Shown piece after piece: positions 5,597 to 38,285 of a stretch of DNA of 44,925 bases. This DNA comes from Rhodanobacteraceae bacterium (GTDB taxonomy: Bacteria > Acidobacteriota > Terriglobia > Terriglobales > Acidobacteriaceae), in the NCBI GenBank assembly GCA_025350865.1, contig JANXWZ010000001.1, positions 1-44,925 of the forward strand, written 5' to 3'. Within the stretch, counting starts at the first letter, position 1. Every line of letters begins with the position of its first letter. Below the pieces are notes generated by a model. That model was not told where the DNA came from, searched no databases, and saw only the letters and a list, made by a program, of their open reading frames with translations. The position numbers and the translations under genes were made by a program.

Positions 5597-6895
5597 GTGG
5601 CCGATGTGTTCGTCAGCTATAAGCGAGAAGACGCGGCGATCGCCGAGCGCATCGTCACGGCGCTCACGGACAGCGGAATCTCAGTCTGGTGGGACGTCGG
5701 TATCACCCCGCGCCAGGCCTGGGACGCAGTCATCGAGCAGGCCATCTCCGAGGCGTCCACCGTCGTGGTGCTCTGGTCGCCCCGGTCGGTCGTCTCCGAG
5801 TGGGTTCGCGCCGAGGCCCACTACGGCAAGGATCGGGGCAAGCTCATTCCAGTGATGGTCGAGCCCTGCACCGTTCCCATCGCCTTCACCCTTAACCAGA
5901 CCGTCAACCTCGCAAACTGGCGCGGCGACCGCGACGACCGCCAATGGCGCAAGCTCCTCACCTGGATCACCGATCTCACCGCCACCAAGCCCGGCAATGC
6001 CAACCTGCCCGGCGGCCTGGTAGCTGTCAACACCGCCAACGCCTACCGCGACTCGGTCGGCACTCTCGCATCCGGCGAAAAAATCTACGACGGAGCCTTC
6101 ATCAACCCGTCCACCCCGCCCGGCACTCTCTTCCGCGACGGTGACAATATGCCGGTCATGCGCACGCTGGCCAAAGGGTCGTTCCTGCTAGGCGCGTCCT
6201 CGGATGATCCCGACCGCACTCCTTACGAATCCCCGCAGAGACGAATCGACCTGCCGGCTTCGTTCGCCATCGGCGTCTTTCCGGTTCTCGCCTCGGAGTA
6301 TGCCAAGATCATCTGCAAATTGCCGTCCGCAGCCGCGCCACCTCCGCCTACTCAGAGCTGGTTCAGCCGGATTACGAAGTCACAGCCTCCACCACAAGCT
6401 GCTGCCCTGGCCGTGTCGGCGGATGGCTTGCCAGTGACTTCGGTCTCGTTTGACGACGCCCAAACCTTCGTCGCACGGCTCTCGTCTGAGTCCCACCAAA
6501 GCTACCGCATCCCCTCGGAAGCGGAGTGGGAGTTCGCCTGCCGGGCGGGTTCGCTCACTCGATATTCCTCCGGAGACAGCATCGATTCCACCAAAGCGGC
6601 GTTTGCCCTCATCGCCGGACCTGTCCCCGTCGGCGCTCATCCAGCCAATAGCTTCGGCCTCTACGACATGCACGGCAATGTTCGGGAGTGGACCGCAGAC
6701 CTGTGGCACGACTCCTACGACCTGACCCCGCAGGACGGAAGACCCGCCCTCGACGGCCACAGTGCTATGCGCGTAGTCCGCGGCGGCAGTTGGTCGGATA
6801 GCGCCGTGATGTTACGCTCGGCCGCCCGCATGAGAGCCACGCAATCGATCCGGAGCAACCTCATCGGCTTCCGCGTTGCTCGCGTCGTCAGCTAG
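5597..6895 (+). CDS. TIR domain fused to formylglycine-enzyme-like (FGE/SUMF1-fold) domain
   Basis: Residues 1-130 form a TIR domain: DVFVSYKRED at 3-12, WWDVG at 31-35, and SEWVRAEA at 67-74, where Glu73 aligns with the catalytic glutamate of NAD-cleaving TIRs (compare DWVHKE in SARM1). From about 170 to the end is an FGE-sulfatase/SUMF1-fold domain: GSFLLGAS, PVTSVSFDDA, YRIPSEAEWEFACRAG, NSFGLYDMHGNVREWTADLW, then VRGGSWSD and GFRVARV at the C-terminus. The copper-binding cysteine pair that follows RGGSW in true formylglycine-generating enzymes is missing, so this half is more likely a binding or recognition module. The start is the GTG at 5597, giving MADVFVSYKR with no ATG further upstream in frame. 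The likely role is signalling or NAD depletion triggered through the C-terminal domain; this is inference. Confidence 0.85.
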   Translation: MADVFVSYKREDAAIAERIVTALTDSGISVWWDVGITPRQAWDAVIEQAISEASTVVVLWSPRSVVSEWVRAEAHYGKDRGKLIPVMVEPCTVPIAFTLNQTVNLANWRGDRDDRQWRKLLTWITDLTATKPGNANLPGGLVAVNTANAYRDSVGTLASGEKIYDGAFINPSTPPGTLFRDGDNMPVMRTLAKGSFLLGASSDDPDRTPYESPQRRIDLPASFAIGVFPVLASEYAKIICKLPSAAAPPPPTQSWFSRITKSQPPPQAAALAVSADGLPVTSVSFDDAQTFVARLSSESHQSYRIPSEAEWEFACRAGSLTRYSSGDSIDSTKAAFALIAGPVPVGAHPANSFGLYDMHGNVREWTADLWHDSYDLTPQDGRPALDGHSAMRVVRGGSWSDSAVMLRSAARMRATQSIRSNLIGFRVARVVS

Positions 6896-21229: not shown

Positions 21230-21601
21230 ATGAAGCGCTCACTCCACGTCTCCGCGCCCTTGCTTGCCGCCGCCGCGCTTTCCATCACCACCGGCTGCCG
21301 CAAGCCCGAGATGCAGCGTTGTGTCGACGAAAAAAACCAAGTCGTCGCCGACAGCTTCTGCCAGAACACCAACTCTCAGCAACCTATCCGCAACTCCACC
21401 GGCGGCTTCTACTATCCATACCGCTACTACTACGGGGGCATGGGCGGCTATGGCCTCGGAACACCGGTCACGGGCGGCGGATATGCGCCGATTGCGGGTC
21501 GATCCTACTCGTCGAGCACTACGCGCGGCGGCTTTGGCAGCACCCACAGCGGCTCCGGGGAATCCGGCGGCGGCTCGCACGGCAGCAGCGGAGGAGAGTA
21601 A
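21230..21601 (+). CDS. YgiB-like lipoprotein
   Basis: The 123-residue lipoprotein has a signal ending LSITTGC. After a short Cys-containing part (MQRCVDEKNQVVADSFCQ) come Tyr/Gly-rich sequence (YYPYRYYYGGMGGYGLG) and a Ser/Gly-rich tail with TTRGGFGSTHSG. The TxxRGGFG motif and the position directly before a YgiC-type ligase match the E. coli ygiB-ygiC pair (DUF1190 lipoprotein plus glutathionylspermidine-synthetase-like protein). Function in E. coli is unsettled, with biofilm and envelope roles proposed. Its stop TAA overlaps the ATG of the next gene by one base. The start ATG at 21230 is fixed by the lipoprotein signal; TAACCT lies ten bases before it. Confidence 0.75.
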   Translation: MKRSLHVSAPLLAAAALSITTGCRKPEMQRCVDEKNQVVADSFCQNTNSQQPIRNSTGGFYYPYRYYYGGMGGYGLGTPVTGGGYAPIAGRSYSSSTTRGGFGSTHSGSGESGGGSHGSSGGE

Positions 21602-22860
21602 TGCAGCGAATCACCCTCACCCCGCGTCCCGACTGGCAAGCCAAGGTCGAAGAGCAAGGCCTCACCTACCACTCACCCTCGGCCATGGCTCCGCATCCAT
21701 ATTGGGACGAGTCTGCCGCGTACCACTTCACCGCCGCCGAGATCGATACTCTCGAAGCGGCCGGCAACGAGTTGCAGACCATGTGTCTCGCCGCCGCGCA
21801 GCACGTCATCGACAAGCAGCGCTATCACGAGCTCGATATTCCGCCCGCCGCTGTCCCGATGATCGAGTGGGCGTGGAACAAGGAGCCGCCCGCAATCTAC
21901 GGGCGCTTCGATATCTCGTGGGCCGGCGCGTCGTCCGGTCAGGCTCCCAAGTTGCTGGAATACAACGCCGACACCCCGACTTCGCTGCTTGAAGCCGCAG
22001 TGGTCCAATGGGCGTGGATGGAAGACGTGACCGAGACCCTGCCCGGAACGTCGTTCCTGCACAAGCGCGACCAGTTCAACTCGATCCACGACCGCCTGAT
22101 CGCGAAGTGGAAGGATGTCGCCGAATCGCTTACCCAGCCCGTCTACTTCGCCGCGCTGGAGTTCGACGAGCCCGATCCGCAAAGCGCGAAGGAAGCCGCC
22201 GAAGACCTGCTCACCGTCACCTATCTCCGCGATACAGCCGAGCAGGCTGGCCTGCAGACGCGCCATATTCCGCTCCAGGACATCGGTTGGAACCCCGACC
22301 GCCACTGCTTCGTCGACACCGACTTCGACGAGAACCAGATGCAGTCGATCTTCAAGCTCTACCCGTGGGAGGCGATGCTCGCAGAGGAGTTCGGCCCCAA
22401 CGCGCTGGCTACCTACCAGTCGATGACGTGGATCGAGCCGATCTGGAAGATGCTGCTCTCGAACAAGGGAATCCTGCCCATCCTGTGGGAGCTTTACCCG
22501 AACCACGAGCTGCTGCTCCCAGCTTTTTTTGAGCGACCGGGCGAAGACATGCAGACGAGCAGCTATACCCGCCTCTCCTCGTATGTCCGCAAGCCGCTGC
22601 ACTCACGCGAAGGTGCCAACGTGTCCATCATCCGGCCCAACGCGCAGACGGTTGAGACCCCCGGCCCATACGGTGGCGGCCCGTTCATCCGGCAGGCTAT
22701 CGCGCCGGACGCAATCTTCCCCAACGCCGCCGGGCAGCCGCGCTATCCGATCCTCGGCGTATGGATGATCGACCAGGAATGCAGCGGGCTGGGTGTCCGC
22801 GAGTCGGCCGGGCCAATTACGGATAACCTCAGCAGCTTCATCCCGCACTACTTCACCTGA
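21601..22860 (+). CDS. ygiC: Glutathionylspermidine synthetase-like ligase (YgiC family)
   Basis: The 419-residue ATP-grasp enzyme is related to the synthetase domain of glutathionylspermidine synthase. Markers are RFDISWAGASSGQAPKLLEY, NADTPTSLLEAAVVQWAWME, GPNALATYQSMTWIEPIWKM, NKGILPILWELYPNHELLLP, YVRKPLHSREGANVSI and a C-terminal GVWMIDQECSGLGVRES. YgiC/YjfC proteins lack the amidase half and probably ligate an amine to a peptide-like substrate, but their substrate is not known. The ATG overlaps the stop of the YgiB-like gene (TAATG), so the two are co-translated. The 3' end overlaps the convergent membrane-protein gene by 13 bases. Confidence 0.92.
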   Translation: MQRITLTPRPDWQAKVEEQGLTYHSPSAMAPHPYWDESAAYHFTAAEIDTLEAAGNELQTMCLAAAQHVIDKQRYHELDIPPAAVPMIEWAWNKEPPAIYGRFDISWAGASSGQAPKLLEYNADTPTSLLEAAVVQWAWMEDVTETLPGTSFLHKRDQFNSIHDRLIAKWKDVAESLTQPVYFAALEFDEPDPQSAKEAAEDLLTVTYLRDTAEQAGLQTRHIPLQDIGWNPDRHCFVDTDFDENQMQSIFKLYPWEAMLAEEFGPNALATYQSMTWIEPIWKMLLSNKGILPILWELYPNHELLLPAFFERPGEDMQTSSYTRLSSYVRKPLHSREGANVSIIRPNAQTVETPGPYGGGPFIRQAIAPDAIFPNAAGQPRYPILGVWMIDQECSGLGVRESAGPITDNLSSFIPHYFT

Positions 22861-26400: not shown

Positions 26401-26426
26401 CCCATGTCTCGCGGTTGAGACATGGG
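26401..26426. promoter_or_regulatory. Perfect inverted repeat next to the promoter of array copy A
   Basis: CCCATGTCTC and GAGACATGGG are perfect 10-base arms around GCGGTT. The likely -10 (ATACGAA region) starts directly after the right arm, so the repeat covers the -10/-35 spacer as an operator would. The preceding bases GGGTGC make it similar to dispersed GGGTGCCCCA palindromes, so a mobile or repeat origin is also possible. Related versions lie before copy C (degraded, near 28032) and copy D (32363-32390). Confidence 0.6.
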
Positions 26427-26460
26427 ATACGAATACCCAACCCCTTCCTTCGGAGCCTTA

Positions 26461-27228
26461 ATGCTCGACGTTCACCCGCCCCACAGCCCCACCCATACGT
26501 GGAAAGACTTCTTAATCCATATCGCCACCATCGTTGTCGGCTTGCTCATTGCCATCGGCCTGGAGCAGACGGTGGAGTATCCGCATGAGCGCAAGCTCGT
26601 CGCCGAAATCCGAAATGCGTTGGAGACCGAGCGACTGATCAACATCAATCGTTTCGAGGCCAATACCAAGGAATTTCGCCGGGAGATTGTCATGCTCCTC
26701 GACAATCGTGCCGTCTTCGTCTACCTCAAGCAGCATCCGGGAGCGCCAGAGTCTGAATGGCCCGCCAAGCTCGAGTGGTATCAGGTGCTCCTCGTTCCGC
26801 GCGATTCGGTATGGCTTCGCGCCCAGCAGGATAATGTCCTGTCTCATCTGCCTGACGCGGAAGCTCGCCACATCGCCAGCCTCTATCGTGAATTGGACAT
26901 CCTGGCCGTAGTCCTGCGCGAGAAGGTAAAGGCCATCCACAGCGCGAATACGTATGCCGTCGCGAAGCTCCCATCTCAGCTCACCCCCGCCGAAATCGAT
27001 CGCGAGATCGAGTACATCGACAAAAGCATCGCTACATGCGAGGAAGTAGCCTGGGAACAGCGCACGCTGACCAGAACGTTCCCGGACTTTGATCGCTCCC
27101 CAACCTGGGCTGAGATGCGCATGGACGGCCCCGCCCATGCCGAGCCGACTCACGATGGAGCCCGCATCCTCGACGAAGCCCATGAATACGCCAGCAAACT
27201 CGAAGCCGAACGAGGAGAAGGAAAGTAA
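26461..27228 (+). CDS. MLDVHPPHS-family membrane protein, copy A
   Basis: The 255-residue protein of an unnamed family seems typical of Acidobacteriaceae. The cytoplasmic head is MLDVHPPHSPTHTWKDFL with four histidines, followed at about 19-38 by one membrane helix (IATIVVGLLIAIGLEQTVE end). The rest is a helical, charged domain, probably periplasmic. A conserved-looking element reads DSVWLRAQQDNVLSHLP, matching SVWAISKSNGTAALLP in copy B. No enzyme motif is visible. GGAGCC three bases before the ATG is the ribosome site, shared with copies C and D. Copy A lacks the HHHH stretch seen after the helix in B and D. Copy B starts 35 bases downstream, so the two probably form an operon. Function unknown. 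Confidence 0.8.
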   Translation: MLDVHPPHSPTHTWKDFLIHIATIVVGLLIAIGLEQTVEYPHERKLVAEIRNALETERLININRFEANTKEFRREIVMLLDNRAVFVYLKQHPGAPESEWPAKLEWYQVLLVPRDSVWLRAQQDNVLSHLPDAEARHIASLYRELDILAVVLREKVKAIHSANTYAVAKLPSQLTPAEIDREIEYIDKSIATCEEVAWEQRTLTRTFPDFDRSPTWAEMRMDGPAHAEPTHDGARILDEAHEYASKLEAERGEGK

Positions 27229-27263
27229 ACCAACCGGAGCGGTCACGAAAGGACATGCCTCAA

Positions 27264-28001
27264 ATGCTCGACGTACACCCGCCGCACAGCCCTACCCATA
27301 CGTGGAAAGACTTCTTCATCCACATCGCCACCATTGTGGTCGGCCTGCTGATTGCCGTGGGCCTGGAGCAGACGGTCGAAGCTGTCCATCACCACCATCA
27401 GCGCGAAGATCTTATCGCCGAGTTTCGCGGAGAGTGCGAGCGCAATATCAAGCTGGCCGATACGAACCTCAAGAACATGCAGAGCGACCGGGCGTGGGAG
27501 AAGGCATGGCTGGAGACGCTCCGCAAGTCTGCCACGGACCCACGCGTCGCTACGATCGTGCTGCCCGCACGACCCAGCGCCAACCAGTATGAAGGCGTCA
27601 CACGTTCGGTCTGGGCCATCTCGAAATCGAACGGCACAGCCGCATTGCTGCCAGAAGGTCTCGCCGAGATGTACGACCGCACCGACCACGAGAGCGACGA
27701 GGTCTACGTCAGCGCCGATCAGTACACCGCGACCCTCCGCCACCTCAGCAATGTCGCTCGTGCCGATGGCTTCGCGTTCAACGCGCGGGCGACCGCACCC
27801 GCCATCGCCGCGGAACTCTCGTTGCTTCAGCGCACTGAACTCATCTCCGCCCTTGCCGACCTGATTGGCGACGACGACGCACTCATACGGTGGACTGCCA
27901 TCCTGCGAGGGGCAAGCCAGGCGGTTCTGGACAATGTCGGTTCACGCGACGCCATGGGGCCTTACATCCGTCGCGCCCAGACGGAAGCCACCGTCGAGTA
28001 A
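27264..28001 (+). CDS. MLDVHPPHS-family membrane protein, copy B
   Basis: The 245-residue paralogue of copy A has the same head (MLDVHPPHSPTHTWKDFF) and membrane helix (IATIVVGLLIAVGLEQTVEA), then VHHHHQRED and a helical domain with FRGECERNIKLADTN and SVWAISKSNGTAALLPEGLA. The His-rich head before the helix and the His cluster after it could hold metal or pH-sensing sites; this is inference. The ATG at 27264 is preferred (AAGGA about ten bases upstream); an ATG at 27255 would add three residues. Unlike A, C and D it has no inverted repeat before it, consistent with cotranscription from the copy A promoter. Function unknown. Confidence 0.8.
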   Translation: MLDVHPPHSPTHTWKDFFIHIATIVVGLLIAVGLEQTVEAVHHHHQREDLIAEFRGECERNIKLADTNLKNMQSDRAWEKAWLETLRKSATDPRVATIVLPARPSANQYEGVTRSVWAISKSNGTAALLPEGLAEMYDRTDHESDEVYVSADQYTATLRHLSNVARADGFAFNARATAPAIAAELSLLQRTELISALADLIGDDDALIRWTAILRGASQAVLDNVGSRDAMGPYIRRAQTEATVE

Positions 28002-28090
28002 CCATTGACGTGTGTCGGGTAGCGGGTGCCCATGTCTCGACTCTGGGACAGAGGATACGATTACCGCAACCCTGAACCTCCGGAGCCAGA

Positions 28091-28153
28091 ATGCTAGACG
28101 TACACCCGCCCCACAGCTCCACCCCCACCTGGAGAGACCCTTGCAGTTCATAG
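28091..28153 (+). pseudogene. MLDVHPPHS-family relic, copy C
   Basis: A complete upstream region (degraded inverted repeat near 28032, ATACGATTACC, GGAGCC) is followed by an ATG and 14 codons that read MLDVHPPHSSTPTW. The frame then runs RDPCSS and stops at 28151-28153. The membrane helix and the whole C-terminal domain are gone. The minus-strand histidine kinase ends 70 bases further on, so this is where the array is broken by the kinase/regulator/PD40 cassette. Confidence 0.8.
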
Positions 28154-28223
28154 GGGATGGACCAGAGCAGCAAATAGTTGAACCATTCAGCCTTCACCGG
28201 AACCATAGCTTTGGGCTGTGCTC

Positions 28224-29627
28224 TCAACACTCTTTCTCTTGAAGAAGCGGCAACGTGACCAGAAACTTCGAGCCACAGCCAAGCTGACTCGTTACGGTGA
28301 TGGTTGCTTTGTGTTGGGCGGCGATTTGCAACGCCAAGGCAAGGCCCAGCCCAGTCCCGCCGTCGAGCCGGGATCGAACCTTGTCTGCACGCCAGAAGCG
28401 GTTGAAGAGCATTGGCAGGGCAGAGCTTTCAATGCCGATACCGGTGTCTGAAACCTCAAGTAGTATGTCGGAGTCGCAGACCGCCAGGGTTACGGATATC
28501 GTGCCTGCCTCGGTGTACTTCAGCGCGTTGTCGATGAGGAGTACCAGGAGGCGGCGCAATTGGGTGTAATCTCCGCATGTAATCACTTCGCCTTCTGCGA
28601 CCGTACTCACCAGGTGGATGCCCTTGCGGGTGGCCAATGGCTGAAGCTCCTCTACCGTCTCTCGCGTCGTCCTTACCAAATCCACGCGTTCAAATATTGT
28701 CCTGTTCTGGTGCGCATCATTCCGCGCCAACGCGAGTAGTTGCTCTACCAGGCGCGTCATGTGAAGCGCCTCTCGCTGCACGGTTTGAAGGGTTTGCGCG
28801 AGTTCCTCCCGCGAATGTTGACGGCGAAGTGTGATCTCGGTCGCGGTAAGGATCAGAGCCAAAGGTGCTCGCAGCTCGTGAGAGGCATCTGCCGTGAACT
28901 GCTGCACAGCGTGGAAGCCGTCCTCAATGCGGGTGAGCATGGCGTTGAGAGTCTGTGCAAGACGCTTCAACTCGTCGTCCGTTGGAGGGAGAGGCAGTCG
29001 GGAAGACAGGTGGTCGGAATCGATAGCCTCTGCATCACGTCGAAGACTCTCGACTGGTGCGAGCGCGCGACGGCTGACCAGGTAAGCCAGGTTTGTCGCG
29101 ATGATGACCGCAAGAGTGAGCAGTAAGGCGAGATAGGTCGTGTATTCGCGCAGGGATACGAGCATGTCGCGCAGCGGCTGGACGAGGTGGATCGTCAGCG
29201 GAACGCCGCCTGAAACAATCTGCTTACTTGCCACTCGAATCGGCCATTGCCGCCAACGTCCCACGGTCGAGAGATCGATCGTTCCCGATGCGGAGGCAGG
29301 GGGGAGCGCGGAGATGCGATGAGAACGAAGGATGTTGGACTCAAAGACAATTTCAGAACGGTCGTTGGTGACTTGAACGAAGACACCGAGCACAGCCGTG
29401 CTGGACTCGCTTGAAAAGGCGCTTTGAAACTGCTCCAGGCTGTTCATCTTATGGCCCTCGATGAACGGCATAACCTGCGCAACGCGAAATTTGAGATCGC
29501 GGTCCACAGTGTGAAGCATGCTTGCGCGCATGGCATACCATGATCCCGCAGCGAACAGCGCGAGGATCAGGGCAGTCGTGACGAGATACCACGCCGTAAG
29601 CCGAAGCTGAATGGTAAGGCCCTTCAC
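28224..29627 (-). CDS. Sensor histidine kinase
   Basis: The 467-residue membrane kinase has a first membrane helix at about 13-33, a periplasmic sensor of roughly 125 residues, a second helix at 163-184, then a HAMP linker. The HisKA domain follows with the phosphoacceptor His250 in FTADASHELRAPLAL. The ATPase has an N box (LLIDNALKYT), G1 (VSDTGIGI), F region (LFNRFWRAD) and G2 (GGTGLGLALA). All catalytic elements are intact. It autophosphorylates and passes phosphate to the regulator encoded just upstream on the same strand, whose stop overlaps its GTG start by four bases. The signal sensed is unknown. The pair resembles CusS/TctE-type kinases in layout. Confidence 0.95.
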   Translation of the reverse strand: MKGLTIQLRLTAWYLVTTALILALFAAGSWYAMRASMLHTVDRDLKFRVAQVMPFIEGHKMNSLEQFQSAFSSESSTAVLGVFVQVTNDRSEIVFESNILRSHRISALPPASASGTIDLSTVGRWRQWPIRVASKQIVSGGVPLTIHLVQPLRDMLVSLREYTTYLALLLTLAVIIATNLAYLVSRRALAPVESLRRDAEAIDSDHLSSRLPLPPTDDELKRLAQTLNAMLTRIEDGFHAVQQFTADASHELRAPLALILTATEITLRRQHSREELAQTLQTVQREALHMTRLVEQLLALARNDAHQNRTIFERVDLVRTTRETVEELQPLATRKGIHLVSTVAEGEVITCGDYTQLRRLLVLLIDNALKYTEAGTISVTLAVCDSDILLEVSDTGIGIESSALPMLFNRFWRADKVRSRLDGGTGLGLALALQIAAQHKATITVTSQLGCGSKFLVTLPLLQEKEC

Positions 29628-30322
29628 TCTTCGCCCTCTCTCAGCGAGTAGCCGACACCGCGTTCGGTGTGTACGAGTCTTGGCAAGCCCGGCAGATTTA
29701 CTTTGCCACGAAGGTACCGGATGAATACGTCCAGATTGTTATCGCTGACGTCCCTGCCTCCCCAGACCTGTTCGATGATGCGGCTTCGGCGCACCACGCG
29801 ACCTGCGGAACGCATGAGGGTCTCCAGAATGGCATACTCGGTTTGCGTCAGGTCCAGGCGGCGCCCGCTGCGGTGTGCGACGTGTTTCTCGGAATCGAGC
29901 ACGATGTCCGCATAACGCATCGGTGGGGCGAGATGGTCTGCGTTGTACCGTGTTCGGGCTCGAATGCGCGCCAGTAGCACTTCGAACTGGAATGGCTTCG
30001 ACAGATAATCATCCGCGCCCGCATCGAGGCCACGAACAATGTCATCGGCCGAATCGCGCGCTGTAAGAAGCAGGATTGGCGTTCGAATATTCTGAAGCCG
30101 CATTCGTTTGGTGACTTCAAAGCCGTTCAGGACCGGAAGCATAACGTCGAGCAGGATGATGTCATAGGCATGCAGCTCGGCTTGCCTTAGGCCGGTTCCT
30201 CCATCATGTGCGACCGCAACAGAACAATCCTCATCTCGCAGGCCTCGCTGGACAAAGGTTGCAAGCTCCTTGTCGTCTTCGACCAGGAGAATGTTGAGTC
30301 CGGCAATGGATGGTTTATGCAT
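29624..30322 (-). CDS. OmpR-family response regulator
   Basis: The 232-residue protein has a receiver domain with the acidic pocket LLVEDDKEL, phosphoacceptor Asp59 in IILLDVMLP, the LLLTARD switch and the YLSKPF lysine. A C-terminal winged helix (LTQTEYAILETLMRSAGRVV, then SDNNLDVFIRYLRGKVN and ERGVGYSLRE) binds DNA. It is the partner of the kinase that overlaps its 3' end. AGGA seven bases before the ATG marks the ribosome site. The gene is divergent from the PD40 protein at 30428, with 105 bases between, so the regulator may control that gene and its own operon; this is inferred from layout. Confidence 0.96.
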   Translation of the reverse strand: MHKPSIAGLNILLVEDDKELATFVQRGLRDEDCSVAVAHDGGTGLRQAELHAYDIILLDVMLPVLNGFEVTKRMRLQNIRTPILLLTARDSADDIVRGLDAGADDYLSKPFQFEVLLARIRARTRYNADHLAPPMRYADIVLDSEKHVAHRSGRRLDLTQTEYAILETLMRSAGRVVRRSRIIEQVWGGRDVSDNNLDVFIRYLRGKVNLPGLPRLVHTERGVGYSLREGEE

Positions 30323-30427
30323 TTGCAGTCCTAAAGGTCTTTGCAGCGCACCACGAACTTCTACAAAGTCATCACACCATACTTGGTTCTCAGAGAGATT
30401 TAAGGTCGCGCTTGCAAGCTTCTATCC

Positions 30428-32266
30428 ATGATTACGCTCGCTGCATTCAGCCTCCTGCTTCTCGGCGCTCTTGCTCCCGCAAAAGACGTCATGCTGATGA
30501 ATCGCATTGGCCCTTCCACCTCAGAACTGTACATGGCGAACCCCGATGGGAGCGGCGAGCGGAAGGTATTCCCAACCAGCAGCTTCGATTATCACGCGAC
30601 CTATTCCTTCGACGGGAAGTGGATCGTCTTTACGTCGGAGCGAACCGGTTCCGGCCAGGCAGACATTTACCGTGCGCATGCCGATGGGACCGGTGTGGAG
30701 CGGCTTACGGACGATCCTGCGCTGGATGATCAGGCTGTGTTTTCGCCGGACGGCAACAGTGTTGCGTTCGTGTCTACGAGAGGCAGTAGCCACCGTGCCA
30801 ACATCTGGATTCTCGACCTCAAGACGAAGCGCCTGCGAGAACTGACCGGCTCGGCGGACGTCCAGGGCGACCCGATGAAGCCGGATGCGTTTCTCCGCCC
30901 TTCCTGGTCACCAGACGGCAAGTGGATTGCCTTTAGTTCTGACCGGAATACAGAATGGAAAGGCCACGGCAACGGCAACGGGTGGGAGCACGTTCAGGAA
31001 CTGAGTATCTACGCCATTCATCCGGACGGATCGGGTCTCCGTCGCTTGACCGGTGCTGGAATCTGCTCCGGCTCGCCCAAGTGGTCCGCAGATTCCAGGC
31101 AGGTTGTCTTCTACGAGATTCCGGTCGAGAGTACCTGGGACGCGCGAGTGTTCCAACTTTCTACACGAGCTACCTCTCAGATTTTCTCGGTCGAGCTGGA
31201 AACCGGAAAACGTACCCCACAGACCACCGGACCCGGCCTGAAGGTAGAGCCACAGTTTTTGGCCGACGGTCGTATCGGGTTCGCCACGAAGTCTGGCAGA
31301 AATCAGGGTATCGCCTACGTTGGAGCGAGCGCCGTGCCGTCCAAAGCCTTTCCGGGAAGCCTCCGATCGCCCGCGTGGACCCCAGACGGCACACAGGTCA
31401 TTTACGAACGGGTAGATTACTCCCCTCGGCCGCAAAACCAGCAGTTGTATAGCTGGGATCCCAAATATGAATATCGCTACACGGACGTGTTCCCAAGCTT
31501 CAGCAAAGACGGAAAGCTCCTCGTCACCAGCAAGGACGCTGATTCCTCTGTCGTCACCATGAATGCGGATGGCAGCGACAGAAAGGTAGTGTTCCAGACC
31601 GTAAAGGGGGCAGCATTCGCGCCAAGCTGGTCGCCGGATGGGCAGCGTATCGCGTTTGGCTACGGGGGATTCCTGCAGGGAAGGCTCACGGCTGGAGCAC
31701 GAATCGTTCTTGTCAATCGCGATGGTACCGGCGTGCAGGAACTCACTCCGGATATGCCGAACGCTGGCTTTCCCAGCTGGTCACCCGACGGCAAAGAGCT
31801 GGTGTATCGCTCCTTCGGTACTGGCGAGATGGGTCTCCGTATATTCAACCTTGAAACCAAGACCACCCGGACCCTGACGACCGAGTCGGATAATCTGCCG
31901 TATTGGTCACCAGACGGAACGCGCATCCTCTTCACGCGGAAGCAGGATAACAACTTCGATATCTTCACCATCAGGCCCGATGGCAAGGACCCGAAACCGA
32001 TGACAACCTTCCCGACGAACGACGCCCATGCGGTGTGGAGCGGGGACGGCAAGTACATCCTGTGGGATAGCGGCGAGTACGGCTTTCGCGATGAGGCAGC
32101 GCTGTATGACAATTCATTCCAGCCTTACGGCTCGATCTGGATCATGAAGGCTGACGGCAGTGAGAAACGCCAACTGACTGAGAGCCACTGGGAAGACTCG
32201 ATGCCGTGCTTTGCCAGCGGGGAACACATGTTGCCGAACCGGGGGACATCCAAGCCGGTGCGATGA
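30428..32266 (+). CDS. Secreted TolB-like PD40 beta-propeller protein
   Basis: The 612-residue protein has a hydrophobic N-terminal signal (MITLAAFSLLLLGALAPAK) and no other membrane helix. The body is made of PD40 (TolB-propeller) repeats, seen as recurring SPDG units: FSPDGNSVAFVSTRGS, SPDGKWIAFSSDRN, WSPDGQRIAFGYGG, WSPDGKELVYRS, WSPDGTRILFTR and a final WSGDGKYILWDS. The many copies suggest two propellers. Such proteins are periplasmic binding or scaffold modules, sometimes joined to peptidase or sensor functions; no catalytic domain is attached here. No Tol-Pal genes are nearby, so it is not the Tol-system TolB. It is divergent from the response regulator and could be its regulated target or signal partner. 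Confidence 0.88.
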   Translation: MITLAAFSLLLLGALAPAKDVMLMNRIGPSTSELYMANPDGSGERKVFPTSSFDYHATYSFDGKWIVFTSERTGSGQADIYRAHADGTGVERLTDDPALDDQAVFSPDGNSVAFVSTRGSSHRANIWILDLKTKRLRELTGSADVQGDPMKPDAFLRPSWSPDGKWIAFSSDRNTEWKGHGNGNGWEHVQELSIYAIHPDGSGLRRLTGAGICSGSPKWSADSRQVVFYEIPVESTWDARVFQLSTRATSQIFSVELETGKRTPQTTGPGLKVEPQFLADGRIGFATKSGRNQGIAYVGASAVPSKAFPGSLRSPAWTPDGTQVIYERVDYSPRPQNQQLYSWDPKYEYRYTDVFPSFSKDGKLLVTSKDADSSVVTMNADGSDRKVVFQTVKGAAFAPSWSPDGQRIAFGYGGFLQGRLTAGARIVLVNRDGTGVQELTPDMPNAGFPSWSPDGKELVYRSFGTGEMGLRIFNLETKTTRTLTTESDNLPYWSPDGTRILFTRKQDNNFDIFTIRPDGKDPKPMTTFPTNDAHAVWSGDGKYILWDSGEYGFRDEAALYDNSFQPYGSIWIMKADGSEKRQLTESHWEDSMPCFASGEHMLPNRGTSKPVR

Positions 32267-32362
32267 TCGCCGGGTCGATACGACCTGCGGATGTTAGCCC
32301 AATGATCATTAGCCGCTAGAAACCTAAACGATCCTTCTAGAAGCAACGCCGGGTGCCAGGCG

Positions 32363-32390
32363 CCCCATGTCTCTTCGTTGAGTCATGGGG
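32363..32390. promoter_or_regulatory. Inverted repeat next to the promoter of array copy D
   Basis: CCCCATGTCTC and GAGTCATGGGG pair at ten of eleven positions around TTCGTT. TACGATTACC follows at once as a likely -10, then GGAGCC before the ATG at 32425. It is the same arrangement as at 26401-26426 before copy A. Confidence 0.55.
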
Positions 32391-32424
32391 TACGATTACC
32401 CCAATCCCTTCACCCGGAGCCGGA

Positions 32425-33219
32425 ATGCTAGACGTCCACCCGCCCCACAGCCCCACCCACACCTGGAAAGACTTCTTCATCCATATCGCAACAATCACTG
32501 TCGGCCTGCTCATCGCCGTCGGCATTGAGCAGACTGTCGAGACGTTGCATCACCATCATCAGGCCCACGAACTCGAAGAAAACCTGCAGGACGAAGCCCA
32601 CAATAATGCCCAACGCATCGAGAACAGCTACGGTGCCAGCGATATCGAGCTCCAGTGGCTCCTGGGTCTCCAGCAGGACATCCAAACCGTACTGACCACA
32701 CACGCCAAACTGGCGTATCGCCCCCGCCCACAGTCCGCACCGGGCGTGCCGTTCATCTGGGATCTCCCCGTCACAGGCGTCTGGGATGCCGCTAAACAGT
32801 CCGGCACCGTCGCCCTTCTGCCCGCTCACCTCGCCGAGCAGTACACTTCCGACTACCATCAGGTCGAGATCTCCTACGACTATCGCACTCGCTTCTACAC
32901 TGCACTTGCACAGCAGCAAGCCTACGAGAGCAAATTCGCATCACCAGCTTGCCCCACCACGCCTGACCTCACTCGTATGAATCCGGAACAGCTGGAGCAA
33001 TACTCGACGCTCGTCGGAAATACGTTCGCTGCAGGGCTGGCCGCCAAAAATCGGCTCCGGATCTTCCAGTACGTGCATAACACCATCACCCACGACTTCA
33101 CCCCCGAGGCGGCAGCAGCCGACCGTACCGCTGTCTTGCGCAGCCACGAAGACAGCTTTCCCGCTCCTGCCCTTGGACGCCCAGCCAGCGATGCCACCTG
33201 TTCCGCCTCTCAACCCTGA
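32425..33219 (+). CDS. MLDVHPPHS-family membrane protein, copy D
   Basis: The 264-residue paralogue has head MLDVHPPHSPTHTWKDFF, a membrane helix (IATITVGLLIAVGIEQTVET) and LHHHHQAHELEENLQDEA after it. The C-terminal domain includes GVWDAAKQSGTVALLPAHLA, matching the SVW...ALLP element of copies A and B. The last 70 residues are longer than in the other copies and end in an Ala/Pro/Ser tail. The start is fixed by the family N-terminus and GGAGCC upstream; an in-frame ATG at 32353 lies before the promoter. It is followed after 31 bases by copy E. Function unknown; probably a one-helix inner-membrane protein with a periplasmic domain. Confidence 0.8.
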   Translation: MLDVHPPHSPTHTWKDFFIHIATITVGLLIAVGIEQTVETLHHHHQAHELEENLQDEAHNNAQRIENSYGASDIELQWLLGLQQDIQTVLTTHAKLAYRPRPQSAPGVPFIWDLPVTGVWDAAKQSGTVALLPAHLAEQYTSDYHQVEISYDYRTRFYTALAQQQAYESKFASPACPTTPDLTRMNPEQLEQYSTLVGNTFAAGLAAKNRLRIFQYVHNTITHDFTPEAAAADRTAVLRSHEDSFPAPALGRPASDATCSASQP

Positions 33220-33250
33220 ATCTACTTCTTACCCCATCCGGAATCCAACT

Positions 33251-33886
33251 ATGCTCGACGTCCACCCGCCCCACAGCCCCACTCACACCTGGAAAGACTT
33301 CTTCATCCACGTCGGAACCATCTGCGTTGGCTTGCTCATCGCGGTCGGCCTTGAGCAGACAATCGAGGTGGTCCACCACCACAGCGAGCGCACCGAGGCC
33401 CGCTAAAACCTCCGCGGCGAGATCACCGCCAATCGCAAGACGCTCGCCAAAGACCTGAAGAGCCTCGACTCCGAAAAGCAGATGCTCGAAGCCGACATGG
33501 ATATCCTGCACAAGCTCCGCGCGCACCAGACCGTCGCGCCCGATAGCCTCCGCTTCTATTGGCAGTGGTCGTCCATGGAAGATTCAGCGTGGCAGACCGC
33601 ACGGGAAGCCGCCGCGATCCCACTCTTCCCGACGTGGCAGATTCAGGGTTACAGCTCCGTTTACGGCCAGCAGGCGCTGGTCAACTCCGCCGGCATCGCG
33701 CTCAGCCGCCAGATCACCGAAGCCGCCATCCCGCTGCGCGTTGAACCCACGCTAGCCGCGCTGAGTCGGTCGCAGATCGATGAACTCCTCCGCTCCTGCG
33801 CCTCCGCAATCAATCAGATCGACTACACCCAATCAGTCGCCGCCACGCTCGACCCCACGTATAACAAGGCGCTCGACGCGCTGTAG
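33251..33886 (+). pseudogene. MLDVHPPHS-family copy E, interrupted by one in-frame stop
   Basis: The head (MLDVHPPHSPTHTWKDFF), helix (VGTICVGLLIAVGLEQTIEV) and HHHSERTEAR are intact, then a TAA at 33404-33406 stops the frame. The same frame continues without any other stop for 160 codons: NLRGEITANRKTLAKDLKSL aligns with FRGECERNIKLADTNLKNM in copy B. The final part includes SAWQTAREAAAIPLFPTW, the equivalent of the SVW...ALLP element. A single base change of GAA or CAA to TAA would explain it. It is either a recent pseudogene, a sequencing error, or a readthrough gene. If translated only to the stop, it would give a 51-residue head-plus-helix peptide. Confidence 0.8.
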
Positions 33887-33951
33887 CGGGTTCTTCTTCC
33901 GACACATGCGATACGATTGTCCGACCCAGCAGAACGCCGGAGCCGCATGCC

Positions 33952-34110
33952 ATGTTCCTCCACCTCATCACCATGTGCGTCGGCCTCATCATCGCCTTCG
34001 GCCTGCAGCAGATCGTCGAATTCTGGCAGCGTCGCAGGCGCATCCACAAGGCCCGCGACCTCGACCTCCAGGCCCAGCGCGATCACGTCGGTCCGCCAGA
34101 TCTTCCGTAA
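33952..34110 (+). pseudogene. Array relic F, helix-only remnant
   Basis: The 52-codon frame reads MFLHLITMCVGLIIAFGLQQ then IVEFWQRRRR, which aligns with the membrane helix of copies A-E starting at FFIHIATIVVG. The MLDVHPPHS head is missing and the C-terminal domain is reduced to about 20 residues. The upstream ATACGATTGTCC and GGAGCC resemble the promoter and ribosome site of the intact copies. The ATG in the expected place (33947) is out of frame, which points to a deletion. It might still be expressed as a small membrane protein. Confidence 0.55.
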
Positions 34111-34151: not shown

Positions 34152-34456
34152 ATGTACTGCCTCCGCCACAGAATCGCCGCAATCGCACTTGTGTTGCTTG
34201 GCGTCGGACCAGCTCTCGCACAAACACAAACCGGCACGATCACTGGCCGCATCGTCGACCTGCAGACCGGCGAGCCAATCGCCAAGGCCGCCGTCTCCAT
34301 CACCGACGTAAACAAGACCGCCACCACGGCCACACCAACTATCGCTACTACCAGTTCGCGTACCTGGGCACCATCGCGACGTCACACTCGGTCCAGGGAT
34401 CTCGCGAAAGTACGCTCCCGTTCCTGCCTGCCGCCGGACTTACCCTGGAGTTTTAG
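34152..34456 (+). pseudogene. Collapsed outer-membrane receptor remnant (carboxypeptidase-regulatory-like N-end)
   Basis: The first part (frame from the ATG at 34152) encodes a signal peptide ending ALLQ-like in GPALAQ, then TQTGTITGRIVDLQTGEPIA and KAAVSITDVNKT, which is the start of the carboxypeptidase-regulatory-like domain found at the N-terminus of acidobacterial TonB-dependent receptors. From about 34325 sense is lost in that frame. Another frame reads NYRYYQFAYLGTIATSHSVQ and ends AAGLTLEF with a terminal Phe, as in outer-membrane proteins. So the two ends of a barrel protein appear joined out of frame after loss of the middle. It overlaps the 3' end of the convergent marR-type gene by 4 bases. 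Confidence 0.5.
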
Positions 34457-34971
34457 CCAATAGACCGCGGCGAGTGTCTGGCGAAACCCAGGTCCGTCCG
34501 GATACGGTTCGGCACACCCACACCCAGCTCGCGCTCCAGCGCCTCGTGTTCTCGCGTCCAGATGGGAACCGCCTCGGCCAACACTCGCATCCCGTGGTCA
34601 GTCAGCCGTAGCACCTTGGTGCGCCGGTCCGACGGGTGACTGTCCAGCCGGAGGAGTTTGCGACCCGACAAAATCCGCGCTGAGGCCGTCACGGTCGTCC
34701 GATCCATACCCAACAGCTCCGCCACACTGCCGATCGTCGCCCGCGGGACACCCTGCGCCTCGGGCCGGTTGAGGCTCATCAACAACGAGAATTGGCCATT
34801 CGTCAGCCCGGTCGGCTTGAGCGCCAGGTCAAAACGCCGCGCCATCTGTCTGGCCGCCCGCTGCAGATGCAGGCAGAGGCAGTGGTCCTTCACCATCAGA
34901 GTCGTACTGAAAGGCACGGCCCGGTCAGTGTCAGCCTCTGCACGAAAATTAACGTTTTCGCGAGTTGACAT
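34453..34971 (-). CDS. MarR-family transcriptional regulator
   Basis: The 172-residue protein has the MarR winged-helix fold: GLTNGQFSLLMSLNRPEAQG, then SVAELLGMDRTTVTASARIL (recognition helix) and SHPSDRRTKVLRLTDHGMRV (wing and following helix). Helices before and after provide the dimer interface. MarR proteins repress a divergent gene until a small ligand binds. Here the divergent gene is the VOC protein at 35061, with 89 bases between and an inverted repeat at 34984-35002 as candidate operator. The two CLCLH cysteines in the first helix (KDHCLCLHLQ) could be redox-sensitive; this is inference. The start ATG at 34971 gives the normal family length. Confidence 0.9.
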   Translation of the reverse strand: MSTRENVNFRAEADTDRAVPFSTTLMVKDHCLCLHLQRAARQMARRFDLALKPTGLTNGQFSLLMSLNRPEAQGVPRATIGSVAELLGMDRTTVTASARILSGRKLLRLDSHPSDRRTKVLRLTDHGMRVLAEAVPIWTREHEALERELGVGVPNRIRTDLGFARHSPRSIG

Positions 34972-36671: not shown

Positions 36672-38285
36672 ATGAAGATCGTCCTCGCAGAGAAAGTCTC
36701 CCCCGCAACCCTCGCCCTCCTCGTAAAAGAACCCGGCTGGAACTGCGTCACTGCCGACAAGATCACGGACCTGAAGGCAGAACTCGCCGACGCCGACGCT
36801 CTGATCGTCCGCTCTGCGGTGCAGGCTGACGCGGCTTTGATCGAGGCCGCGCCGAAGCTGCGCATCATCGGCCGGGCGGGCGTCGGTGTGGACAACATCG
36901 ATACCGCAGCCGCTACTCATGCCGGCATCGTGGTGATGAACACACCGGGCGCGAACGCAGTCGCTGTGGCGGAGCTGACGCTTGGGCTGATGATCGCGAT
37001 GTGCCGGTCGATTCCGCGTGCGAACGAGACGATGCACGCCGGCAAGTGGGACAAGAAGTCACTGCAAGGTCTGGAACTCCGCGGCAAGACGCTCGGTATT
37101 GTTGGGCTTGGGCGGATCGGGCTTGAAGTCGCCCGACGCGCCGCAGCCTTTGGCATGGAACTGGTCGCTTACGATCCGTTTATCGCGCCGGTGATCGCCC
37201 GCGAGAACGGCGTCACTCTTGCCAACCTCGACGATGTCTTCCGCCACTCCGACTACCTGACGCTCCACGTCGGGCTGACGGCGCAGACCGAAGGCATGAT
37301 CAATGCGACGTCGATCGCAATCATGAAGCCCGGTGTCCGCATCGTGAACTGCGCCCGCGGTGAACTGATCGTTGATGCCGCACTCGCCGACGCACTCAAG
37401 TCCGGCAAGGTCGCAGGTGCCGCGCTGGACGTGTTCCACCAAGAACCGCTCAAGGACTCGCCCTACTTTGCGCTGCCCAATGTGCTGCTCTCTCCGCACA
37501 TCGCCGGCGCAACGGACGAGGCGCAGGAAGCGATCGGCATCCAGCTTGCGACGCAGGTCCGCGACTACCTCAAGCTCGGCGTCGTTCAGAATGCCGTCAA
37601 CCTGCCATCGCTTTCGCATGAGGAGTACCTCGAAGTCGCACCCTACATTGAGATGGCGTCGCGGCTTGGGCACTTCCTCTCGCATTCCACCCCGGGGCAA
37701 TTGGAGAATATCCAGATCACGTACTCGGGCCGCATCGCACAGGGCAAGACAGATTTGATTCGCAACGCGGCTATCGCGGGCATCTTCGCGGATACGGAAG
37801 GCGAGAACAGCGTCAACCGCATCAACGCGGCAGCGATTGCGCAGGAGCGCGGCATCCGCATCCAGGAAGACAAGAAGGAATTCGTCAGCGGCGGCTCGGG
37901 CTCGGTGCTGAAGCTCACGCTTCACTCCTCGGACGGCGATAGCGCGGCGTCGGCAACGGTGCTGCATGGAACTTCGCCGCGCCTGCTTACCTATGACGGC
38001 ATCGACATTGAGGCGCCGCTGAATGGAACGCTGGTCGTCATCCGTAACCACGACGTTCCCGGCGTAGTCGGGCGGATCGGTACCATTCTGGGCGAGCATC
38101 AGATCAACATTGCCAACTTTGCGCTCGGGCGGAGCACGCGTTCGCAGAAAATTCCACAGGGGCAGGCGCTCGCTGTCGTCCAGATCGACGTGCCTAGCGC
38201 GCACGATGCCGCACCTGCATTAGCCGCGCTGAAGGCCGTGGAGGCGATTGCCAGTGTGCGTCTGGTCGAGCTGGGAGAGGCGTAA
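36672..38285 (+). CDS. serA: D-3-phosphoglycerate dehydrogenase SerA (long type)
   Basis: This is the first enzyme of serine synthesis, oxidising 3-phosphoglycerate with NAD+. At 537 residues it is the long form with four domains. The nucleotide-binding motif GLGRIG is at 145-150. The catalytic triad is Arg229 (NCARGEL), Glu258 (DVFHQEPL) and His276 (LSPHIAGAT). A regulatory/intervening domain spans about 320-450. The C-terminal ACT domain (VVIRNHDVPGVVGRIGTIL, then HQINIANFALGR) is the usual site of serine feedback inhibition. AGGGA and a TAAACT ten bases before the ATG mark the start region. The class V aminotransferase at 17896 could supply the next step but is unlinked. Confidence 0.97.
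   Translation: MKIVLAEKVSPATLALLVKEPGWNCVTADKITDLKAELADADALIVRSAVQADAALIEAAPKLRIIGRAGVGVDNIDTAAATHAGIVVMNTPGANAVAVAELTLGLMIAMCRSIPRANETMHAGKWDKKSLQGLELRGKTLGIVGLGRIGLEVARRAAAFGMELVAYDPFIAPVIARENGVTLANLDDVFRHSDYLTLHVGLTAQTEGMINATSIAIMKPGVRIVNCARGELIVDAALADALKSGKVAGAALDVFHQEPLKDSPYFALPNVLLSPHIAGATDEAQEAIGIQLATQVRDYLKLGVVQNAVNLPSLSHEEYLEVAPYIEMASRLGHFLSHSTPGQLENIQITYSGRIAQGKTDLIRNAAIAGIFADTEGENSVNRINAAAIAQERGIRIQEDKKEFVSGGSGSVLKLTLHSSDGDSAASATVLHGTSPRLLTYDGIDIEAPLNGTLVVIRNHDVPGVVGRIGTILGEHQINIANFALGRSTRSQKIPQGQALAVVQIDVPSAHDAAPALAALKAVEAIASVRLVELGEA

Follow-up and report, generated by a model that had tools for sequence, protein, structure and literature searches.

Proteins of the DUF6090 family (PF19578) of Bacteroidota are one-helix proteins: a membrane helix at the N-terminus, which has a G-x-x-x-A step, precedes a helical domain. 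Here we describe a tandem array of one-helix membrane proteins in a 44,925-base stretch of DNA from an acidobacterial soil bacterium (contig JANXWZ010000001.1 of assembly GCA_025350865.1; hereafter the window), which is the entire contig and belongs to a genome of 4.78 Mb in 246 contigs. The likeness of these proteins to DUF6090, namely a helix with G-x-x-x-A and a helical domain, is one of general description, and no member tested matched the Pfam profile: PF19578 gave no match in 6 proteins (E ≤ 1), in 25 members (E ≤ 0.1) or in sets of 10 and 6 proteins (E ≤ 10), and for 85 members (E ≤ 10) it was absent among the 25 families listed of 79 with weak matches. A search for DUF6090 members to use in comparison drew no match in 60 genomes or in 14 controls, and a typed probe found none in plasmids.

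Compared with the four-helix-bundle sensors of chemoreceptors (Tar, Tsr, MCP2201 and PcaY), the predicted bundles gave Z in a range common for bundles, but the three intact copies of the window, A, B and D, have one membrane helix and end after the bundle, without a HAMP or signalling domain; no HAMP or MCP families were among the Pfam matches listed. The PE/PPE proteins of mycobacteria resemble the present array, by description, in that their N-terminal part is conserved, that they are genetically variable and that recombination has been reported for them (PMC4770551). They differ in their signature motifs, and PE/PPE genes are described as scattered over the genome whereas this array is tandem. 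In the concerted evolution of prokaryotic paralogues such as tuf, paralogues of one genome are closer to each other than to the orthologues of other species (PMC6053082); here, in contrast, the signal does not extend past the first ~40 codons and is seen in some of the arrays only.

The array lies on the plus strand. Five head copies were found by DNA search, starting at 26461, 27264, 28091, 32425 and 33251, and the sixth member, F, was detected at the protein level (pLDDT, predicted local distance difference test):

26461..27228, plus strand: copy A, an intact open frame of 255 residues with head, membrane helix and helical-bundle tail (AlphaFold pLDDT 90.3)
27264..28001, plus strand: copy B, an intact open frame of 245 residues that begins 35 nucleotides past A (AlphaFold pLDDT 93.1)
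28091..28138, plus strand: copy C, a true relic of 16 head codons only, 85% identical to A over 48 nucleotides of DNA, where the likeness stops
32425..33219, plus strand: copy D, an intact open frame of 264 residues
33251..33886, plus strand: copy E, with a single in-frame TAA at 33404-33406 in a frame otherwise open to 33883
33952..34110, plus strand: copy F, a tail-less mini-gene of 52 residues with a membrane helix and then an Arg-rich end

Matched against the first 340 bases of A, the DNA of B, D, E and C gave E values of 1.8e-38, 1.2e-33, 1.5e-28 and 1.8e-8, respectively, so the head repeats are not due to chance. An earlier reading of the window from its letters alone (the sequence-only reading) had stated that the heads of A, B, D and E are alike at the DNA level too, which these values bear out; of its six copies or remnants, A, B and D are confirmed as intact genes, E as a broken one and C as a relic, but F, which it had also called a relic, is not one. 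One more family member lies elsewhere in the genome (contig C181:9979-10608).

A full gene of this family combines a head of about 40 codons, a His-rich start with a predicted membrane helix, and a tail of about 200 residues predicted to form a helical bundle. AlphaFold gives A and B one common fold, a long helix that crosses the membrane into a helical bundle, yet their tails are only 29% identical. For none of the members tested did we obtain a convincing Pfam or NCBIfam match; domain names drawn from weak matches were rejected, as they differed from member to member, and so was the best hit of a sequence search against solved structures (E 0.074). No paper on the family was found in the literature searched, mostly outside subscription journals.

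We propose that these are tandem one-helix membrane proteins built as cassettes, in which a common helix module is joined to interchangeable bundles. The chances of this reading as a whole we judge to be even; its core, a cassette family whose heads recombine, we consider likely. Established at the level of sequence are a nameless family, its tandem arrays, a fixed locus at which members may be present or missing, common tail classes, constrained tails and a conserved mini-gene, together with a likeness of heads within arrays that exceeds codon usage in part of the arrays.

The likeness of heads was examined with 57 copies from 19 Acidobacteriaceae arrays (the partial first copy of L038 and the third, shorter copy of L146 were excluded from this and the codon test). 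By head DNA, 29 of the 57 copies had their nearest neighbour in the same array; by tail protein, 8 of 57 did. Label shuffles gave a mean of 2.6 and a maximum of 12 for heads and a mean of 2.5 and a maximum of 10 for tails. Mean head identity was 0.784 within versus 0.689 between arrays, a difference reached by 0 of 2000 shuffles, whereas mean tail identity was 0.254 versus 0.244 (157 of 2000 shuffles). We then compared codon identity at shared residues with an expectation from the codon usage of each locus, in 22 arrays that include three loci of the gammaproteobacterial order. Within arrays, heads shared 66.7% of codons against 44.1% expected (n 2170) and tails 47.4 against 41.3 (n 3832); between arrays the values were 54.5 against 42.1 for heads and 43.8 against 39.6 for tails. 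The heads of the window alone gave 65 against 41. In 16 arrays (the set without L111, L054, L060, L056, L146 and L157), 47 within-array pairs yielded 33 blocks of at least 80% identity. Counted from the start codon, their median start was -1 and their median end +134 (with quartiles of 117 and 149), just past the helix.

Strict conservation of the protein combined with a nucleotide constraint around the start codon could also make heads alike, without any recombination, if the tails diverged after old duplications. Several observations favour this explanation and weigh against recombining heads. Heads of different arrays also exceed the codon expectation, so a constraint on the nucleotides around the start codon may contribute to the signal; the majority of the blocks begin at the start codon itself; and neither the pairs in these counts nor the cells of the codon test are independent. 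The heads of L153 show little codon excess (0.45 versus 0.38), and in L060 and L146 the tails score above the heads. Two of 8 chosen pairs of tail-class mates had a clearly higher synonymous divergence (dS) in the head than in the tail, 3 had a similar one and 3 a lower one, and of 7 chosen quartets, 3 followed the tail history (5:2, 14:3 and 21:1), 3 grouped by array (5:1, 4:2 and 5:2) and one was a tie. However, the excess of codon identity within arrays (0.226) is about twice that between arrays (0.124), and two mosaic pairs have a head that is more diverged at synonymous sites than the tail: in L045.1/L048.1 the tail dS is 0.10 and the head dS 0.37 (3.6 times the tail), and in L111.5/L145.2 the values are 0.23 and 0.59 (2.6 times). 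The sharpest case of head copying comes from the gammaproteobacterial order, where two neighbours (L191, 4062-5530) share 34 of 35 head codons over tails of 33% protein identity; the heads of L190 share 25 of 28. We therefore regard an origin of the likeness without recombination as rather unlikely. Because the dS pairs split 2/3/3 and the quartets 3/3/1, homogenisation of the heads is episodic and not general. (The neighbour and codon tests number the copies of L152, L155 and L157 in the reverse order of the tail-class and dS analyses; the latter include the partial first copy of L038, so that L038.3 of the former is L038.4 of the latter.)

With classes formed at 40% identity by single linkage, 15 tail classes have at least 2 members (the four tails of the window belong to none), and arrays pair them differently, as classes F-I, F-B and H-F, as M-K-L, or as C-A, C-A-J and C-A-G. 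Tail classes that recur across genomes in varied combinations and heads alike beyond codon-usage expectation, though not in every array, agree with the suggestion of the sequence-only reading that this is a recombining gene family. Its further suggestion, that of variable receptors whose outer domain diversifies and which signal through one partner, fares less well. The ratio of nonsynonymous to synonymous divergence (dN/dS) of the tails was 0.15-0.37 in the 8 chosen pairs, rough values since tail dS exceeds 1 in 3 pairs, and on this basis the tails are under constraint; positive selection was not seen in these pairs. In the family alignment A3 the tail core residues W117 and A120 are present in 80 and 82 of 85 rows, and W117 in 14 of 14 rows of the gammaproteobacterial alignment A6. 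DNA likeness does stop just after the helix, but the tails keep their predicted fold, their core and their constraint, which does not support a fast-changing outer domain. We consider diversifying receptors improbable.

In the proposed cassette mechanism, the head of ~120 nucleotides would be a site of homologous recombination, by conversion or unequal exchange, which would add, delete and re-pair cassettes in frame while keeping the heads alike. More tentatively, the helix stripe H20-G27-A31-E35, which contains the GxxxA step, may pack on other helices; the copies and the tail-less F might then assemble into homo- or hetero-oligomers, or bind a single membrane partner shared by them all, and each copy would present its own bundle, which might bind something or sense a condition. 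The stripe is present in 85 of 85 rows of A3, among them A, B and D, and all 14 rows of A6 carry H, S, A and E at the corresponding positions. Two points limit this reading: the invariance of H20 and G27 is partly a matter of how loci were picked, because the pattern of the scan that yielded 64 of the loci contained both residues, and the signals of topology conflict. By counts of Lys and Arg, 57 of 93 members would have a cytoplasmic tail (29 are equal and 7 opposite), against the cytoplasmic head and outer tail of the sequence-only reading, whereas the low cysteine content of the tails (0.23%) hints at the opposite. We offer helix docking by the head as a conjecture that may well be wrong, and a sensing or binding role of the bundles as a doubtful one. 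An extension of this, a membrane "plug-board" in which a GxxxA head kept interchangeable by recombination among neighbouring genes yields mixed complexes of varied bundles, with F as a helix-only partner or brake, is more speculative still; it would have a parallel in the neighbouring copies of the gammaproteobacterial order.

The family, for which Pfam and NCBIfam offer no convincing match, occurs in two bacterial phyla (Acidobacteriota and gammaproteobacteria), and among its tandem paralogues the membrane-helix module alone is apparently homogenised by recombination. If heads do exchange so as to fit each other or one partner, the arrays would be a natural test of helix-helix specificity and a model for bacterial mixed membrane complexes assembled from cassette genes. 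With the conserved mini-gene that lacks a tail, the docking idea could be tested on two small proteins.

This mini-gene, F, encodes Met, a helix with the family His and the GxxxA step, and an Arg-rich end. A tail-less mini-gene like F precedes the four-member array of Granulicella sp. L46 (L040) and the single member of a G. sapmiensis metagenome-assembled genome (MAG; L059). Because the same mini-gene adjoins members in both, F is, from its conserved 52-residue frame and these two counterparts, a conserved mini-gene with one predicted helix and not the relic it had been taken for. Its dN/dS in three pairs over 33 codons, a small sample, was 0.64, 0.31 and 0.26. Searched against 250 family genomes, a profile of the three mini-genes matched at full length in 2, the window's own and L46, which both contributed to the profile. 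Many of its weaker matches were heads of full-length members, which the profile also picks up among its 13 matches in L46, and a match in G510 seemed by eye to be due to chance.

With copy B as query, 18 of 61 genomes matched, its own included, and a profile search matched 34 of 62 genomes of the genus, with 0-6 matches each (0 in 28 genomes, 1 in 16, 2 in 11, 3 in 2, 4 in 3, 5 in 1 and 6 in 1, the last being the window's own genome), counts that include some pieces of one broken gene. A smaller profile matched 22 of 297 genomes of the phylum. A scan of a wider collection gave the 64 loci mentioned above, mostly of Acidobacteriaceae, plus gammaproteobacterial records; the 7 genomes of eight of these loci had 1-9 matches. 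In the gammaproteobacterial order of a Rhodanobacter record, 27 of 200 genomes matched at E ≤ 0.001, 4 of them below 1e-50 and the rest at ~1e-21 to 5e-4, and hhalign matched A3 to A6 with an E of 4.8e-21 over 210 columns. Three genomes of this order (G782, G743 and G678) hold 2 or 3 copies inside ~5 kb, so that neighbouring copies recur there too. Two gammaproteobacterial MAGs (G593 and G595) had 9 and 6 matches that, unlike tandem arrays, were scattered across many contigs; several of these matches were short or broken. Two distant members, L200 and L201, differ in the helix (LLLAFGASAWH and VLLALAIGEWS), a hint of a wider gammaproteobacterial superfamily.

Arrays with at least 3 full or near-full members at one locus are those of the window (A, B, D and E) and of L038, L040, L044, L054, L060, L111, L145, L146, L153 and L155. 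By the sequence-only reading's own test, single-copy members that evolve evenly along their length would count against its receptor idea: 16 of the 34 matched genomes have a single match, but others carry multi-copy arrays, and evolution is uneven between head and tail. Its view that the array is turning over agrees with the 0-6 matches per genome of the genus, with broken copies outside the window's genome (one in G006 and one on a plasmid) and with empty junctions at the locus described below. The plasmid copy (L131, 8001-8592, on pACPOL4 of Acidisarcina) has its head and tail in different frames. Spread by plasmids was rejected, this broken copy being the match in 1 of 72,556 records, and so was a viral origin, as 96 stretches with the pattern in viral contigs yielded 0 relatives by tblastn.

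The array of the window stands between two conserved genes:

21601..22860, plus strand: glutathionylspermidine-synthase-like gene (GSPS; Pfam GSP_synth, synteny), left border of the conserved locus
36672..38285, plus strand: serA (Pfam, synteny), right border of the conserved locus

We clustered 930 genes around 80 loci, naming clusters by eye except where they were scanned with Pfam. Eighteen clusters recur in at least 5 of the 80 loci, among them serA, GSPS, an aminotransferase, an FAD oxidase and alaS; serA is found at 11 and GSPS at 10 loci, window included. Sixteen loci, chosen for a nearby serA or GSPS or for their arrays, were compared, and as two pairs share a contig they represent 14 genomes. 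The interval between GSPS and serA contains members in 12 of these 14 further genomes (4 copies in L044; 3 in L054 and L060; 2 in L045, L048, L056 and L157; 1 in L057, L061, L066, L077 and L120), the exceptions being L146, with serA only, and L129, with a different arrangement. Among 12 genomes of the genus that lack the family, GSPS and serA are adjacent in 3 (gaps of about 113, 127 and 161 nucleotides), a fourth has a Uma2 gene alone between them, and of the other 8, within the 1.5 kb examined, 4 have the aminotransferase and 4 none of the window genes. Other members sit at further places that appear conserved by eye, beside alaS, the FAD oxidase and others, and for this reason GSPS and serA do not imply a functional partner; a conserved partner gene was rejected, as the recurring clusters mark several separate conserved loci and none is common to all.

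Tandem, varied and membrane-anchored genes present or absent at a fixed locus would also suit a stack of orphan immunity genes, each tail neutralising another competitor toxin. However, tail classes are common to different genomes at the same locus, and no toxin or secretion genes were seen by eye in the clusters of at least 5 of 80 loci (PADLOC was not searched), and we hold this explanation to be very improbable.

The remaining features of the array are its leaders and the genes between C and D:

26401..26445, plus strand: leader of A, starting with a dispersed palindrome (repeat family D3)
28029..28073, plus strand: leader of C, 76% identical to the leader of A
32364..32408, plus strand: leader of D, 78% identical to the leader of A
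28224..30322, minus strand: histidine kinase and response regulator (Pfam)
30428..32266, plus strand: PD40 beta-propeller (TolB-like) gene (Pfam)

The kinase, regulator and PD40 genes are found at 0 of the 16 compared loci of relatives, and they were probably inserted into the array for that reason; this insertion may have cut copy C, if the order of events is as we infer. The palindrome, CCCATGTCTC..GAGACATGGG at 26401-26426, occurs at 7 exact places in the genome, and the leaders of C and D carry decayed forms of it. As the other 6 exact places are on contigs without heads, it was rejected as an element of the family and taken as a dispersed repeat. A leader common to the family was also rejected, TACGAWT occurring within 160 nucleotides upstream in only 2 of 93 members, namely A and D of the window. 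Elsewhere in the window, positions 34154-34463 encode a secreted-protein-like start that by eye resembles the N-terminus of a TonB receptor, with no Pfam match at E ≤ 1e-4, and at 5597-6895 a TIR domain (PF13676, E 2.7e-25) and a sulfatase-modifying-factor-like domain (PF03781, E 1.5e-46) are joined in one fusion.

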